Positions 21,654 to 27,337 of a stretch of 64,000 bases of DNA are shown piece by piece. Source of the DNA: Pseudoxanthomonas kaohsiungensis (GTDB lineage Bacteria; Pseudomonadota; Gammaproteobacteria; Xanthomonadales; Xanthomonadaceae); NCBI RefSeq assembly GCF_010211765.1, contig NZ_PDWO01000005.1:62001-126000 (forward strand), read 5' to 3'. How positions within the stretch are numbered: the stretch's first letter is position 1; the number at the start of each line of letters is the position of its first letter. The notes below the pieces were generated by a model, which was not told the origin of the DNA, searched no databases, and was given only the letters and a program-made list of their open reading frames with translations. A program made the position numbers and the translations under genes.

Positions 21654-22589
21654 TCAACGTGGCGGGGCCGGGTCCTCGCGGGCGAACTTCAGCTCGCCCA
21701 GCGCACCGAACATCCGGAAGGGAATCGCTTCCAGGCGCATCCCGCCGTTGGCCTGGACCGCGAAATGCAGGTGCGGCGCGGTGCTGTAGCCGGTATTGCC
21801 CGAGAGCGCGATGCGCTGGCCCTGCCGGACCTGCTGTCCGACCCGCACCTCCACCCCTTCCGGCTTGAGGTGCGCGTACAGGGCCATGCTGCCGTCCTCG
21901 TGGAGGATGCGTATGAAGTTGGCGCGGCCCCCGTAATGCTCCCGGTCCAGCCCGGCGCGCTGGAAGTCGGACTCGACCTGCATCACCGTGCCGCCCCGGG
22001 CCGCCAGCACGGGCGTGCCTTCCGGCAGGGCGAAGTCGATCGCGTAGAAGTTCTGCGCGTCGCTGTGGCTGAAGCGTCCACCGAAGCCCTGGTCCACCCG
22101 CACCCGGCCGTAGTCGAACGGCACGCGGTATTCGAAGTCCAGCGGGCGCGCCCGCGGATCGCCGGGCAGCTGCAGCATGTTCGCTTCGAACGCGTTGGGC
22201 AGGCGCGGATCGACCGGGTAGATCCGCGCGACCACCACGCTCCCGCCCGCCGGGACCACCTGGCTTGCCGGCAGCGCCGGCACCGGCCTGACGTTGTCGG
22301 CCCGGGCCAGGTCCAGCTGCACCTGCACCGGGCCCGGCGCGCTGTTGAAGGCGGTGATCTCGTAGTGGCTGCCGCGATCGCGCACGTGCAGCACCACCGG
22401 GTCGCCGGGCGGGCGGCGGAAGGTCCCGCTGCGCGCGTCGGCGGCCGGATCGGCCGGCGGCCGGTCGCCGTAGATGGTCGTGCCCTGGCCGTCCTTCCAT
22501 CGCCAGAACCGCGCCGCTTCGGCCGGTGGCGGCAGCGCCAGCGCGACGAGGGCCAGCCAGGCGATCGAGCCGGCGCGACCGCGGTTCAT
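21654..22589 (-). CDS. M23-family metallopeptidase with N-terminal DUF4124-like domain
   Basis: Secreted LytM-type protein of 311 residues. A signal peptide (WLALVALALPPPAEA) is followed by a DUF4124-like segment (RFWRWKDGQGTTIYGDRPP) and, at residues ~175-290, the M23 domain: RFSHSDAQNFYAIDFALPEGTPV holds the first zinc His and Asp, YAHL the next His and APHLHFAV the HxH pair, so the active site looks complete. It belongs to the subclass with YAIDFA after the first ligand. Expected role is cleavage of peptidoglycan cross-links or activation of amidases. ATGA overlap with the preceding phytase-like gene indicates co-translation. Confidence 0.88.
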   Translation of the reverse strand: MNRGRAGSIAWLALVALALPPPAEAARFWRWKDGQGTTIYGDRPPADPAADARSGTFRRPPGDPVVLHVRDRGSHYEITAFNSAPGPVQVQLDLARADNVRPVPALPASQVVPAGGSVVVARIYPVDPRLPNAFEANMLQLPGDPRARPLDFEYRVPFDYGRVRVDQGFGGRFSHSDAQNFYAIDFALPEGTPVLAARGGTVMQVESDFQRAGLDREHYGGRANFIRILHEDGSMALYAHLKPEGVEVRVGQQVRQGQRIALSGNTGYSTAPHLHFAVQANGGMRLEAIPFRMFGALGELKFAREDPAPPR

Positions 22590-23662
22590 CGGCGGCAGGC
22601 GCGGGACAGCCGCAGCCGGCGGGCGACGTCGCCCAGGTCGAACGCCGATACCGCGTGGTCGTCGTGCAGTGCATAGAGCACGCCGTGCGGGAAGCGCGCC
22701 GACGCGTCCGCGCGCAGCGCGACGCCGTCGGTCAGCGTGGTCCGGGTACCGGTGAAGCTGCCGGCGGGAGCCAGGCTGATGCGGTCGAACAGGCGGAAGC
22801 GGGTCGGCGACAGCTGGTCCACCGCGATCCAGTAGCCCGAGCGGTCGCCGCATGGCCAGAGCACCACGCCTTCGGCGTCGTCCTCGAACGGGGGCAGGTT
22901 GCGGCCGAGGAAACGGCCGTCCATCGAGTATTCGCGAAGCGTGGAGCCGACCCGGTTGTCCTCCTCGGCGATGAGCAGACGTCCATGCGCCGGATCGCCC
23001 GCGATCGACTCGACCATGCGCAGCGCCCCCGCCTCGCCGGTGTCGCCGAATGCGCCCAGGTACTGCGCCTGCAGGCGGCCACCGCTGTCCACCGAGACCC
23101 GGTAGCGCCTGACCCGCTCGGCCAGCCGCTCGCGTGGCGGCAGTTGCGCGGTAGCGAAATCGGCCATGAAACTGTCGGTCACGTAGGCGGTCATCCCGTC
23201 CGCGGACGAAGCATCCACCCAGATGCCATAGGGCAATTCCAGCTCGTCGCGCCCGAAATGGCCCAAGGCGCGGAAGTCGGGGAGGTGCAGCACCTGGACG
23301 CGGTGGCGGTCGCGCTCGACCACGAACAGCAGGTCGCCGGATACGGCCACGCCATTGGGCCGGCGGAACTGGCCGGGGCCGTCGCCCGGTCCGCCGGACG
23401 CGCCGATGCGCACGCCGCTGTCGGCGTCGAACAGCACCAGGCGCTGGCCTTCCTTGGCGCTGGCGATCAGCCAGGGACGCCCGGCGGCGGGCTGCCACGC
23501 GGCAAGCGAGTCCAGCTCTTCGCCCTCCACGGGCGCGGAGGTCCAGGCTTCGCGGACGACCGCGGATGGGGGGGCTGCGCCCGGGCTGGCAGCGAGGCAG
23601 GGGGCCGAGCAGGTCGCAACCGCGATTGCGACGGCCCGGAGGAAACGGGGGAGGGAGAGCAT
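22586..23662 (-). CDS. Secreted beta-propeller protein, phytase-like
   Basis: A 358-residue exported protein (signal peptide to about residue 25, ending SAPCLAAS). The mature sequence shows propeller blades: QFRRPNGVAVSGDLLFVVERDRHRVQV, ELPYGIWVD, ESIAGDPAHGRLLIAEEDN, EDDAEGVVLW and ARFPHGVLYALHD. The order and wording of the last three resemble Bacillus-type beta-propeller phytase (calcium-dependent hydrolysis of phytate), where LYIAEED and FGLFVAQD occur, but I cannot confirm the active site without alignment; an NHL-like propeller is the alternative. ATG 23662 is chosen over TTG 23668. It is divergent from the met operon. Confidence 0.72.
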   Translation of the reverse strand: MLSLPRFLRAVAIAVATCSAPCLAASPGAAPPSAVVREAWTSAPVEGEELDSLAAWQPAAGRPWLIASAKEGQRLVLFDADSGVRIGASGGPGDGPGQFRRPNGVAVSGDLLFVVERDRHRVQVLHLPDFRALGHFGRDELELPYGIWVDASSADGMTAYVTDSFMADFATAQLPPRERLAERVRRYRVSVDSGGRLQAQYLGAFGDTGEAGALRMVESIAGDPAHGRLLIAEEDNRVGSTLREYSMDGRFLGRNLPPFEDDAEGVVLWPCGDRSGYWIAVDQLSPTRFRLFDRISLAPAGSFTGTRTTLTDGVALRADASARFPHGVLYALHDDHAVSAFDLGDVARRLRLSRACRR

Positions 23663-23732
23663 AGGCAACGATTATCGGCAGACCGGGCGGGAAGGTGAAG
23701 GCGTGAGCCATCGCTCTATCCGGATGAAACGA

Positions 23733-23761
23733 TTGACACCCGTCGGGGCCGGTGGCACTCT
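23733..23761 (+). promoter_or_regulatory. Promoter of the met operon
   Basis: A perfect -35 box TTGACA (23733-23738) is followed after 17 bases by CACTCT (23756-23761), a poor but usable -10. Transcription would start near 23768, exactly where the 5' strand of riboswitch helix P1 begins, which supports this assignment. Confidence 0.6.
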
Positions 23762-23766
23762 GGCCC

Positions 23767-23880
23767 CGCCATCGAGACCGGCGGAGGGACAGGCCCTTTG
23801 ATGCCGGGGCAGCCAGCAGACGCGCAAGCGCCTGCGTGGTGCCAAATCCTGCGGGGACCTTCGCGTCTGCCGGAAGATGG
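23767..23880 (+). promoter_or_regulatory. SAM-I (S-box) riboswitch aptamer
   Basis: The leader of metX matches the SAM-I consensus throughout: GGCGGAGGGACAGGCCC (P2 side), the kink-turn region TTTGATGCCGGGGCAGCC, the core GGTGCCAAATCC (23838-23849), a P4 hairpin around ACCTTCGCG, and the closing GGAAGATGG. Helix P1 pairs CCATC (23769-23773) with GATGG (23876-23880). S-adenosylmethionine binding stabilises P1 and switches off methionine biosynthesis genes in this class. Its position before metX-metB-hom is what the class predicts. Confidence 0.94.
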
Positions 23881-23925
23881 TTCGACCCGTGCGCCATGCA
23901 CGGCGAACGCGGGCTCCGCAAAGAG

Positions 23926-23957
23926 CTCGATGGCGAGTTCCTCCCGGACATCGCCAT
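23926..23957 (+). promoter_or_regulatory. Predicted translational expression platform of the SAM riboswitch
   Basis: CTCGATGGCG (23926-23935) is perfectly complementary over ten bases to CGCCATCGAG (23767-23776), the 5' strand of P1. Its inner part ATGGCGA (23930-23936) is also perfectly complementary to TCGCCAT (23951-23957), which contains the first two bases of the metX ATG. The two pairings exclude each other. With SAM bound, P1 holds its own strand and the second hairpin can cover the start codon; without SAM the first pairing frees it. No T-tract terminator is present. Inferred from complementarity only. Confidence 0.7.
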
Positions 23958-24987
23958 GAGCCTCGTGAACGCCCCACTGCAGCCCGATACACCGACCGCA
24001 CCGGTCGCCGCCGGTGGCGACTCCCCGCCGTCCGCCGTGCGCGGCGAGATCGCGGTGGCATTGCCGATGCGCCACGCCGGCGTGCGCCAGGCGGTCCTGC
24101 GTTACGAAATCCACGGCCCCGCCTCGGCGCCGGCGGTCTTCGTCGCCGGCGGCATTTCCGCGCACCGTCACGTCTCGGCCAGCGACAGCTTCGCCGAACC
24201 GGGCTGGGCCAATGCGCTGGTCGCCCCCGGGCGCACGCTGGACCCGGCCAGCCATCGGGTCGTCGCCTTCGACTACGTGGGTGCCGATGGCCGGCTGGAT
24301 GCGCCGATCGACACCACCGACCAGGCCGACGCCATCGCCGTGCTGCTCGATGCACTGGAAATCGGGCAACTGCAGGCCTTCGTCGGCTATTCCTATGGCG
24401 CCATGGTCGGCCTGCAGTTCGCCGCGCGCCATCCGCAGCGGCTGCAGAGGCTGGTCGCGGTCAGCGGCGCGCACCGGCCGCATCCCTACGCCTCGGCCTG
24501 GCGCGCGCTGCAGCGCCGTGCGGTCGCCCTGGGCCAGCTGCAGTGCGCCGACGCGCAGGGCCTGGCGCTGGCGCGCCAGTTCGCGATGCTGAGCTACCGC
24601 ACGCCGGAGGAATTCGGCGAACGCTTCGACAGCGCGCCTGAAATCGTCAACGGCCGCGTGCGCTGCGCCGCCGAGGACTACCTCGACGCCGCCGGTGCGC
24701 AGTACGTGGCGCGCACGCCGGTCACCGCCTACCTGCGCCTGTCCGAATCGATCGACCTGCACCGCCTCGATCCCGCCAGCGTATCCGTGCCGGTCAGCGT
24801 GGTGGCGGTGGAAGGCGACCGCCTGGTGCCTCTCGCCGACTCGGTGAACCTGGTCGAGGGCCTGGCCGGGCGCGGCCAACTGCGCGTGCTGCGCTCGCCG
24901 TACGGGCACGACGCCTTCCTGAAAGAAACCGACCGCATCGACCTCATTCTCGCCGCCGTCCTGCGCGGCACCGGAGCCGCCACGTGA
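23956..24987 (+). CDS. metX: Homoserine O-acyltransferase (MetX family; probably succinyltransferase)
   Basis: First step of methionine synthesis from homoserine. Alpha/beta-hydrolase fold, 343 residues: the oxyanion-side segment FVAGGISAHRHV, nucleophile elbow VGYSYGAMVGLQFAA with the catalytic Ser, acid VVAVEGDRLVPLADSVNL, and His in SPYGHDAFLKE. The family name suggests acetyl-CoA, but MetX proteins of Xanthomonadaceae are known to have switched to succinyl-CoA; the choice cannot be settled by eye. ATG 23956 is preferred over the in-frame ATG 23896 because the switch hairpin masks it and the conserved part starts well after it. Its stop overlaps the GTG of metB. Confidence 0.9.
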   Translation: MSLVNAPLQPDTPTAPVAAGGDSPPSAVRGEIAVALPMRHAGVRQAVLRYEIHGPASAPAVFVAGGISAHRHVSASDSFAEPGWANALVAPGRTLDPASHRVVAFDYVGADGRLDAPIDTTDQADAIAVLLDALEIGQLQAFVGYSYGAMVGLQFAARHPQRLQRLVAVSGAHRPHPYASAWRALQRRAVALGQLQCADAQGLALARQFAMLSYRTPEEFGERFDSAPEIVNGRVRCAAEDYLDAAGAQYVARTPVTAYLRLSESIDLHRLDPASVSVPVSVVAVEGDRLVPLADSVNLVEGLAGRGQLRVLRSPYGHDAFLKETDRIDLILAAVLRGTGAAT

Positions 24988-26243
24988 GCCAGAACATCCC
25001 CGCCGCCGATATCAACGCCGGTTGCAGCCCGGCCACCGCCGCGGTGCGCGCAGGCATCGACCGCGACGCCGCCTACGGGGCCGTAACGCCGCCGATCGTG
25101 CTGTCGAGCAATTTCAGCTTCGATGGCTTCGGCAACAAGCGCCAGTACGACTACACCCGTAGCGGCAACCCGACCCGCGACCTGCTGGGCGAGGCCCTCG
25201 CGGAACTGGAGGGCGGCGCGGGCGGCGTGGTCACCGCCACGGGGATGGGCGCGATCACCCTGGTGCTGCATGCGCTGCTGCAGCCGGGGGATCGCCTGGT
25301 GGTGCCGCACGACGCCTACGGCGGCAGCTGGCGCCTGTTCAACGCGCTGGCCGCCAAGGGCCACTTCGAGCTGATCACCGCCGACCTCACCGATCCGCGT
25401 TCGCTGGCCGACGCGCTGGGCCAGTCGCCGAAGCTGGTGCTGGTGGAGACGCCGTCCAACCCGCTTCTGCGCATCACCGACCTGCGCCTGGTGATCGACG
25501 CCGCGCACCGCGCCGGTGCGCTGGCCGTGGTCGACAACACGTTCCTGTCGCCGGCGCTGCAGAAGCCGCTGGCGTTCGGCGCCGACCTGGTCCTGCACTC
25601 GACCACCAAGTACGTCAACGGCCACAGCGACGTGGTCGGCGGCGCCGTGGTCGCGCGCGATCCCGAACTGCACCAGCAGCTGGTGTGGTGGGCCAATGCA
25701 CTGGGCCTGACCGGCTCGCCGTTCGACAGCTTCCTGACCCTGCGCGGGCTGCGCACGCTGGACGCGCGCATGCGCGTGCACCAGGAGAACGCGGCGGCGA
25801 TCGCCGCGCTGCTCGATGGGCATGCGGCGGTCGGGAAGGTGTACTTCCCGGGCCTGGAGTCGCATCCGGGCCATGCGGTCGCCGCGCGCCAGCAGGCCGG
25901 CTTCGGTGCGATGCTCAGCTTCGAACTGGCCGCCGGGCCGGATGGCGACACCGAGCGCGCGGTACGCGCCTTCGTCGATTCGCTGCGCTGGTTCACCCTG
26001 GCCGAGTCGCTCGGCGGCGTGGAAAGCCTGGTCGCGCATCCGGCCACGATGACCCATGCGGCCATGAGCGCGGAGGCGCGCGCCAAGGCCGGCATTTCCG
26101 ACGGCCTGCTGCGCCTGTCGATCGGCATCGAGGCCTGCGCCGACCTGGTGGCCGACGTTTCCACCGCATTGCGCGCGGCGCAGCTGGCCGCGGCCGCCGC
26201 CCCCGCGCAGGCCGTGCCGGTGAACGAACGGGTGCACGCGTGA
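24984..26243 (+). CDS. metB: Cystathionine gamma-synthase / O-acylhomoserine sulfhydrylase family PLP enzyme
   Basis: PLP-dependent enzyme of 419 residues that exchanges the acyl group of O-acylhomoserine for cysteine (trans-sulfuration) or sulfide. Motifs: YTRSGNPTRDLLGEALAELE (phosphate/PLP binding), GMGAITLVLHALLQPGD, YGGSWRLF, ETPSNPLLRITD, VVDNTFLSP, and the Schiff-base Lys in LHSTTKYVNGHSDVVGG; C-terminal SLGGVESLVAHPATMTH and LLRLSIGIE are typical. Start is GTG in a GTGA overlap with metX; its stop overlaps the GTG of hom in the same way. Distinguishing gamma-synthase from sulfhydrylase needs residue-level comparison. Confidence 0.92.
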   Translation: MSQNIPAADINAGCSPATAAVRAGIDRDAAYGAVTPPIVLSSNFSFDGFGNKRQYDYTRSGNPTRDLLGEALAELEGGAGGVVTATGMGAITLVLHALLQPGDRLVVPHDAYGGSWRLFNALAAKGHFELITADLTDPRSLADALGQSPKLVLVETPSNPLLRITDLRLVIDAAHRAGALAVVDNTFLSPALQKPLAFGADLVLHSTTKYVNGHSDVVGGAVVARDPELHQQLVWWANALGLTGSPFDSFLTLRGLRTLDARMRVHQENAAAIAALLDGHAAVGKVYFPGLESHPGHAVAARQQAGFGAMLSFELAAGPDGDTERAVRAFVDSLRWFTLAESLGGVESLVAHPATMTHAAMSAEARAKAGISDGLLRLSIGIEACADLVADVSTALRAAQLAAAAAPAQAVPVNERVHA

Positions 26244-27337
26244 GTGCCGTGGCCGGGCTCGCGCCGCGCGCGGCGCGAAGTGCGCACGGACGCGCCGCGC
26301 CGCGCCGGCGGCTGGCTCTGCTCGGCACCGGCACGGTGGGTACGGCGTTCGTCGAGCGCTACCAGCAGTTGCAGGCGCGCGGACTGGAGCTGCCGCAGGT
26401 CGCGTGGCTGGCCAACTCGCGCAGCGTGCAGGCCTGCAGCGACGGCCTGCTCCCGGCGCTGGACCGCGCCAGGGCCGCGCCGCGCCGCGAAGTCGTGCTG
26501 CAGGGCTGGGCCGAAGCGGAGGCGCTGCACGCCGGCGACATCCTCGTTGACGCGACCGCCAGCGAGCGGGTCGCCGACTGGCATCCGGAATGGCTGGCGC
26601 GCGGCGTCAGCGTGGTGACCGCGAACAAGCTCGGCCACGGCTCGCTGCTGGCCCGTTCGCAGGCGATCGTCGACGCGCAATGCGAGACCGGCGCGCGCTA
26701 CGGCGACAGCGCCACGGTAGGCGCCGGGCTGCCGTTGCTCGGCAGCCTGCGCGCGCTGGTGGCCGGCGGCGACCGGATCCATGCCGTGGAGGGCGTCCTG
26801 TCCGGTTCGCTGGCCTGGCTGTTCGACCGCCACGACGGCTCGCTGCCGTTTTCGCAGCTGGTGCGCGAAGCGGCGGCGGCCGGTTACACCGAGCCGGATC
26901 CACGCATCGACCTGTCGGGCGAGGACGTGCGCCGCAAGCTGCTCATCCTGGCGCGGGCCGCAGGCCTGGCGCTGGAAGCCTCGCAGGTGCAGGTGCAGTC
27001 GCTGCTGCCGGACGCGCTGGCGCGGGCCCCCGCCGCCGAGGTGGAGGCGCTGCTGGGGCTGCTCGACGGACCGCTGGAGGAGCGCCTGCGTTCCGCGCGG
27101 GAGGCCGGCGGGAGCTTGCGCTATGTCGGGCGCTTCGACGCCGGCGGTGCGTCGGTCGGGCTGCGCGTGCTGCCTGCCGGCCATCCGCTGGGCGCCGGCG
27201 GCGGCACCGACAATCGCGTCGCGGTGACGAGCGACCGCTATCCGCGGCAGCCGCTGGTGATCCAGGGCCCCGGGGCAGGCGCCGCGGTGACCGCGGCCGC
27301 GCTCCTGGACGACGTGCTGCGGATCGGCGCGGCCTAG
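26240..27337 (+). CDS. hom: Homoserine dehydrogenase
   Basis: NAD(P)-dependent reduction of aspartate semialdehyde to homoserine, the branch point to Met and Thr. 365 residues, without an aspartokinase or ACT domain. Rossmann motif LALLGTGTVGTAFVERY, ILVDATASERVADWH, VSVVTANKLGHG, catalytic region YGDSATVGAGLPLL, GVLSGSLAWLFDRH, AGYTEPDPRIDLSGEDVRRKLLILAR (conserved Glu, Asp, Lys). GTG start in a GTGA overlap with metB. Lying in the SAM-controlled operon, it would feed homoserine to MetX. Its stop is two bases from the stop of the convergent cyclase gene. Confidence 0.95.
   Translation: MSAVAGLAPRAARSAHGRAAPRRRLALLGTGTVGTAFVERYQQLQARGLELPQVAWLANSRSVQACSDGLLPALDRARAAPRREVVLQGWAEAEALHAGDILVDATASERVADWHPEWLARGVSVVTANKLGHGSLLARSQAIVDAQCETGARYGDSATVGAGLPLLGSLRALVAGGDRIHAVEGVLSGSLAWLFDRHDGSLPFSQLVREAAAAGYTEPDPRIDLSGEDVRRKLLILARAAGLALEASQVQVQSLLPDALARAPAAEVEALLGLLDGPLEERLRSAREAGGSLRYVGRFDAGGASVGLRVLPAGHPLGAGGGTDNRVAVTSDRYPRQPLVIQGPGAGAAVTAAALLDDVLRIGAA

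Follow-up and report, generated by a model that had tools for sequence, protein, structure and literature searches.

Outside the Firmicutes, translation attenuation is the commonest mode of riboswitch control in most groups, and the 3' strand of P1 can include the ribosome-binding site in SAM-I riboswitches (Barrick and Breaker 2007, PMC2258182). The closest described system is SAM-I_Xcc of Xanthomonas campestris, located upstream of metA-metB-hom (Tang et al. 2020, PMC7270179). In GUS fusions, repression by SAM was about 98% for the translational versus about 24% for the transcriptional construct. According to the same paper, both the Shine-Dalgarno (SD) box and the AUG are sequestered in the SAM-bound state, the anti-AUG being AUGGC at positions 172-176. 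The model is backed by in-line probing and mutants, and the RNA binds SAM and discriminates against SAH. Uncharged initiator tRNA binds the anti-SD (C181C182), freeing the SD. The element is called highly conserved in Xanthomonas species (PMC7270179), and a conserved leader was reported in Pseudoxanthomonas suwonensis and S. acidaminiphila (Zhang et al. 2018, PMC6230763). No precedent closer than these two papers was found in the open-licence literature on riboswitches in Lysobacter, Xanthomonadales, Pseudoxanthomonas and Stenotrophomonas.

We analysed a stretch of 64,000 nucleotides from Pseudoxanthomonas kaohsiungensis (the window; all coordinates refer to it). The RNA upstream of metX is very probably the Pseudoxanthomonas counterpart of SAM-I_Xcc, controlling translation of metX and so the metX-metB-hom operon. 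A translational switch hiding the metX AUG had been proposed in an earlier sequence-only reading, and this proposal is supported by the sequence, by relatives and by the published experiments on the X. campestris homolog. The implied novelty of start-codon occlusion in a gammaproteobacterium is not sustained, as SAM-I_Xcc was already shown to sequester the SD together with the AUG (PMC7270179). Since SAM-I_Xcc and a Pseudoxanthomonas leader are already in print, the window RNA is a further member of a known group: its mechanism is known from X. campestris and is not a new kind of control. The new points are the breadth of the group, the natural variation in what is masked, the possible mimicry of the start region by P1, and a computed folding order suggesting kinetic control. 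The data obtained here for the window RNA are the aptamer, the pairings, their conservation and computed folds; we infer that it would behave as SAM-I_Xcc does and that its choice would be kinetic. The features of the region are as follows.

23710..23733, no strand assigned: 24-bp imperfect palindrome ATCGCTCTATCCGGATGAAACGAT, which overlaps the -35 element and is a candidate SamR operator, agreeing in length and target genes with the SamR motif as described in PMC4239095
23733..23738, + strand: -35 element TTGACA, read from the sequence and exact in 144 of 159 distinct upstream regions
23756..23761, + strand: weak -10-like hexamer CACTCT, 17 bp from the -35 element, assigned by spacing only
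23767, + strand: approximate transcription start, inferred from the 190-nt 5'UTR of X. campestris (PMC6230763) and aligned leaders
23766..23883, + strand: SAM-I (S-box) aptamer, P1-P4 (RF00162, 64.9 bits)
23767..23776, + strand: 5' strand of the SAM-free switch helix (P1 5' strand and GAG of J1/2), from sequence and fold; an 8-pair core is conserved
23769..23773, + strand: P1 5' strand CCAUC, pairing with GAUGG at 23876-23880 (Rfam alignment, fold)
23790..23793, + strand: L2 CAGG, pseudoknot strand complementary to CCUG at 23848-23851, read from the sequence
23848..23851, + strand: CCUG, partner of the L2 pseudoknot strand, read from the sequence
23876..23880, + strand: P1 3' strand GAUGG (Rfam alignment, fold)
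23926..23935, + strand: switch element CUCGAUGGCG, which pairs with the P1 5' strand (ON) or provides the anti-AUG (OFF); sequence, fold, relatives
23930..23936, + strand: anti-AUG AUGGCGA, 5' strand of P7a, from sequence and homology to AUGGC 172-176 of SAM-I_Xcc (PMC7270179)
23939..23941, + strand: anti-SD UCC (P7b), from the fold; judging from Xanthomonas leaders, the likely counterpart of the tRNA-fMet site C181C182 of SAM-I_Xcc
23946..23948, + strand: Shine-Dalgarno GGA (sequence, fold)
23951..23957, + strand: UCGCCAU, 3' strand of P7a over the A and U of the start codon (sequence, fold)
23956..24987, + strand: metX, homoserine O-succinyltransferase MetX, 343 aa (NF006449, 542.6 bits, cut-off 296)
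24984..26243, + strand: metB, cystathionine gamma-synthase / O-succinylhomoserine (thiol)-lyase (NF006450, 786.8 bits, cut-off 730)
26234..27337, + strand: hom, homoserine dehydrogenase, start uncertain (best match NF006959, 292.4 bits, below cut-off)

The aptamer upstream of metX, claimed from the sequence, is borne out by a match to the full RF00162 model (1-108) at 23766-23883, with 64.9 bits against a cut-off of 44.4. It is the single match in the whole genome, located in front of metX-metB-hom. The complementarity of CAGG and CCUG we take to be the L2-J3/4 pseudoknot of SAM-I. By analogy with the Xcc homolog, the Pseudoxanthomonas aptamer is expected to bind SAM and to discriminate against SAH. 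No intrinsic terminator and no terminator-like site was found in a scan of 23500-24200, in agreement with the earlier claim.

The product of hom resembles homoserine dehydrogenase domains, with scores below curated cut-offs. The nearest MetX proteins are those of Pseudoxanthomonas daejeonensis (87%) and P. koreensis (86%) among the best 80 of 567 named relatives, a collection from which records very near the source genome may be left out. Automatic gene callers could misplace the metX start (region 23752-24987), because the leader contains two in-frame codons ahead of the likely ATG, a GTG at 23752 and an ATG at 23896. The divergent gene at 22586-23668 (- strand) has a weak NHL-type match below the cut-off; proteins looking similar to its product were seen by eye in 6, perhaps 7, of the 30 loci L002-L031.

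Two perfect, mutually exclusive pairings had been described, CGCCATCGAG (23767-23776) with CTCGATGGCG (23926-23935) and ATGGCGA (23930-23936) with TCGCCAT (23951-23957), and both are present exactly at these positions. P1 is short (CCAUC/GAUGG) compared with the ten perfect pairs of the competing helix, and the two exclude each other because both use the same 5' strand. A perfect helix of at least 10 bp with this strand was formed by 2 of 2000 dinucleotide shuffles of 23884-23955, and a helix of at least 7 bp covering the AUG by 11 of 2000. The latter helix was said to cover the metX AUG; it pairs the A and the U but does not include the G of the start codon (ATG at 23956-23958). The inner anti-SD/SD stem in the computed fold, UCC 23939-23941 with GGA 23946-23948, has only 3 pairs. 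The P1 5' strand GCCAUCGAG closely resembles the start region GCCAUGAG, so that one element can hold either of them.

In the proposed mechanism the aptamer would emerge first from the nascent transcript. If it is empty, the element CUCGAUGGCG, once transcribed, would strip the 5' strand from P1 and form the ON helix, with the AUG free. If SAM keeps P1 closed, the element would wait for the start region, AUGGCGA would pair with UCGCCAU, and the AUG would be buried; the short UCC/GGA stem would pair the SD in this OFF state.

RF00162 matches were observed in 277 of the 297 genomes sampled from the GTDB family, representing 53 of 54 genera, and sampling of the order gave 78 genomes with a match out of 121, 60 of the 78 lying outside the family. 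Leaders were collected from 90 family genomes (30 loci and 60 regions, the better-scoring among the matches listed), from 75 of the 80 named loci and from the window; 161 of the 166 have a usable start. Five named loci lacking the core motif were dropped (L120, L121, L124, L153, L161), as were L001, a duplicate of the window, and L019, L032, L035, L094 and L125, where orientation or start is uncertain. Start codons were set by hand in eight loci (L011, L025, L068, L072, L074, L087, L114, L162). Some named and unnamed loci look like the same genomes (e.g. L093 and L034), so the counts given below are not independent. The raw list of an automatic element search contains doubtful helices in some leaders (e.g. 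L003, L025, L058) and was not used for the conservation counts.

The conserved parts are the 8-pair core CCAUCGAG/CUCGAUGG of the switch helix and the AUGGC/GCCAU core; few relatives have the two outer pairs of the 10-bp helix. Conservation in close relatives, suggested in the sequence-only reading as a check, is observed in most leaders examined but not in all: a G[AG]TGG element lies upstream of the start in 131 of 161 and is absent from 30. It faces a CC before the start codon in 114 of the 131 element-bearing leaders, with a fifth pair in 109. A start-codon-facing element is thus present in 114 of all 161 leaders, with 22 changes on the MetX tree. Other targets occur as well. In g46, a strand GGACTC or GGAACTC has its complementary partner over the SD in 8 of the 10 leaders; in g5, CGGGTC pairs with GACCCG at the SD end, before a GTG start; in g14 and g49 a strand between the SD and the AUG is paired. 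AUG masking is a common but not obligatory form.

Some leaders have unusual starts. In L003, L004, L007, L009, L020, L066, L074, L130, L151 and L168, metX apparently starts with GTG and not with ATG. In L094/L032 (Pseudoxanthomonas broegbernensis) and L035 the element is present and a clear SD-ATG is missing from the usual place; here the start may be GTG or may have moved, and the platform may be altered in these species. The record L158, titled Bacillus subtilis SK7B5, contains a Stenotrophomonas-like metX leader and gene, probably owing to contamination or mislabelling.

The core C-G, A-U, C-G and C-G pairs are invariant in the 54 distinct strand pairs and therefore silent about covariation; the U-A core pair is found as U-G in 9 of the 54. 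The J1/2 base just outside P1 forms G-C in 43 strand pairs, A-U in 5, C-G in 1 and G-U in 2, and is an A/C mismatch in 3. These 51 standard pairs out of 54 were reached by none of 10000 shuffles, which ignore relatedness. Six of the nine rows without G are paired; the A-U pairs come from g13, g34, g47 and Stenotrophomonas ginsengisoli (L171), and the C-G pair from g37. The pattern is broken by the A/C mismatches, two in g33 and one in g13, and one of the two G-U cells (g39) may reflect a misplaced register. Parsimony gives 9 changes of this pair on the MetX tree. Independent contrasts on the same tree yielded 3 supported events, on average 2.1 concordant, 0.0 discordant and 0.8 unchanged, which is not significant in an underpowered test. 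One pair of the switch helix appears to change in step in several genera, with exceptions, the independent events being too few for significance. When cognate and foreign 5' strands and platforms were permuted among 71 representatives, the signal was real but modest: 8 of 2000 permutations did equally well. With 18 variants ranked singly, one was best and several were in the middle (32/68, 36/70, 41/63), and this test was replaced by the J1/2 column count.

Folds were computed without SAM and without tertiary contacts. With P1 forced, the free-energy minimum of the window leader is -103.5 kcal/mol and both the AUG and the SD are paired; with the switch helix forced it is -99.0 kcal/mol, the full-length OFF fold being lower by 4.5 kcal/mol without SAM. 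Growing transcripts folded freely form P1 at ends 23883, 23900 and 23925, the switch helix at ends 23936 and 23945, and P1 together with P7a at ends 23958, 23980 and 24010. We considered 136 leaders in which P1 has 5 or more pairs and the switch helix 6 or more, a set of related sequences whose helices were preselected by the automatic search, which biases the result in favour of the switch helix. Before the start region is made, 135 of them prefer this helix; at full length the OFF fold is favoured in 117 and the switch helix in 17, and the order flips in 116. As the full-length computed minimum is the OFF fold, a switch at equilibrium alone would, by these energies, sit mostly OFF. The model thus suggests kinetic control rather than a simple equilibrium: the ON helix would prevail up to the transcription of the start codon and then give way to the OFF fold.

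The probability that the AUG of the window is unpaired rises from 0.01 with the element free to 0.66 with the element blocked. For the SD the corresponding values are 0.18 (OFF) versus 0.23 (ON). Since the SD is mostly paired in both computed states, SAM would mainly toggle the AUG, and full activity would need a further factor, as in Xcc. Indeed, the SD of SAM-I_Xcc is held without SAM and freed by initiator tRNA (PMC7270179), in agreement with the computed state of the window SD. By analogy, binding of uncharged initiator tRNA is predicted for the window anti-SD, whose sequence differs from that of Xcc; the initiator tRNA of the source genome is identical to that of X. phaseoli at 77 of 77 positions. 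Among relatives, counted with the same automatically found helices and the same bias, accessibility of the AUG increases by more than 0.2 in 79 of 157 leaders, with no such gain in 78, and that of the SD in 23 of 156.

The TTGACA element is conserved. A conserved operator-like palindrome overlapping the -35 element had been missed in the sequence-only reading. TTGACA lies 36-38 nt ahead of CCATC in 124 upstream regions (in the register of the script). A sigma-70 promoter scan did not list the met promoter, and the -10 element is poor. Transcription had been proposed to start at the first base of P1. This fits the 190-nt 5'UTR determined by 5'RACE in X. campestris (PMC6230763), but the distance from start site to start codon in the same species is given elsewhere as 200 nt (PMC7270179), and thus the exact base is uncertain.

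The palindrome ends on the first T of TTGACA. Its dyad positions match in 9 of 12 cases in the window and in 9.5 of 12 on average in 143 regions, versus 5.3 in letter shuffles. The window palindrome contains ATC-10 nt-GAT (23710-23725), and its outer ATC and GAT are 18 nt apart; relatives with a CCGAAT centre have the palindrome without the 10-nt ATC-GAT form. The SamR motif is described as a 24-bp palindrome, with the consensus ATC-10 nt-GAT common to SahR (PMC4239095), and the met palindrome is a candidate SamR operator. A genome search with an operator pattern allowing at most 3 mismatches found the met operon site only. A looser pattern picked up one more, some 10 nt ahead of the probable start codon of metK, which makes two sites in all; genes predicted to be SamR targets are present in each of the two operons (PMC4239095). 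With neither pattern was an operator found in the genome at metE, metF or metH, which are named in the SamR paper.

One possibility is that the aptamer is real and the AUG hairpin incidental, since the complement of the CCAUC strand of P1 pairs with any GCCAUG start. Pairing with CCAU of P1 already dictates the AUGG half of the element, GCC ahead of ATG may be common in GC-rich genomes, and some genera dispense with the AUG pairing. We nevertheless regard this explanation as improbable: the 7-bp AUG helix of the window is rare among shuffles (11 of 2000), GCC precedes the start codon in 113 of the 131 element-bearing leaders, and in Xcc mutations of the anti-AUG and of the anti-SD, made separately, each relieved about half of the repression (PMC7270179). 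It is somewhat less probable again that the operator-like palindrome in the promoter exerts most of the methionine control and the riboswitch adds a minor layer. The palindrome over the -35 element is conserved, and the predicted SamR regulon of Xanthomonadales includes metB, metX2, hom and metK (PMC4239095); on the other hand, it was the 5'UTR that responded to methionine in Xcc, and not the promoter fusions (PMC6230763).

The least probable alternative, in our opinion, is a riboswitch acting mainly on the transcript level, with the untranslated OFF transcript terminated by Rho or attacked by RNase. Such a mechanism would be compatible with the absence of an intrinsic terminator in 23500-24200 and with the fall of the Xcc transcriptional fusion by about 24% with SAM, for which the authors leave Rho or RNase effects possible (PMC7270179). 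However, the translational fusion fell by about 98% (PMC7270179), and a Rho mechanism would not need the start-codon-facing element observed in 114 of 161 leaders. Translational control of metX by a counterpart of SAM-I_Xcc remains the preferred explanation.

A bolder reading, which we offer tentatively and consider rather doubtful, is that the family has a retargetable mimicry device. The P1 5' strand GCCAUCGAG would be a copy of the start region GCCAUGAG, and a bivalent element (CUC for the SD, AUGG for the AUG) would pick the copy or the original within a transcription window of about 20 nt; in some lineages the blade would have shifted away from the start codon, onto the SD or its flank, with a switch helix kept. 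If this is true, the mimicry device, the promoter operator and the sensing of initiator tRNA would be three separate methionine inputs on one operon. The comparison places the characterised Xanthomonas variant of SAM-I in a group found in most sampled genomes of the family, which opens the mechanism to study in other relatives. With one aptamer joined to AUG-masking platforms in some leaders and to SD-pairing ones in others, the natural variants are a ready-made series for analysing what translation switching takes. As the fold is predicted to flip during transcription of the start codon, the kinetic question can be tested directly.

The SamR regulon of Xanthomonadales (PMC4239095) may have its counterpart here in the 24-bp palindrome of the met operon and the similar site beside metK, but the met palindrome is a DNA element of the promoter, separate from the RNA switch. 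T-box riboswitches share with SAM-I_Xcc the sensing of uncharged tRNA, whereas SAM-I_Xcc is described as lacking the specifier loop and the T-box loop, its tRNA site being the anti-SD (PMC7270179); no T-box family was found in the window at the gathering score. Firmicute S-box riboswitches (yitJ, RF00162) have the aptamer in common with the window. However, the functionally characterised ones are reported to use a Rho-independent terminator (PMC7270179), whereas the platform in the window is translational, with no terminator found. The closest system is SAM-I_Xcc. P7a has 7 bp in the window versus 5 in the Xanthomonas leaders compared, and the window has UCC as the anti-SD and GGAC as the SD where Xanthomonas has GAUCC and GGAUA. 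The aptamer class, the order of genes in the operon, the absence of a terminator, the anti-AUG AUGGC facing GCCAU, the inner anti-SD/SD stem and the leader length of about 190 nt are common to both.
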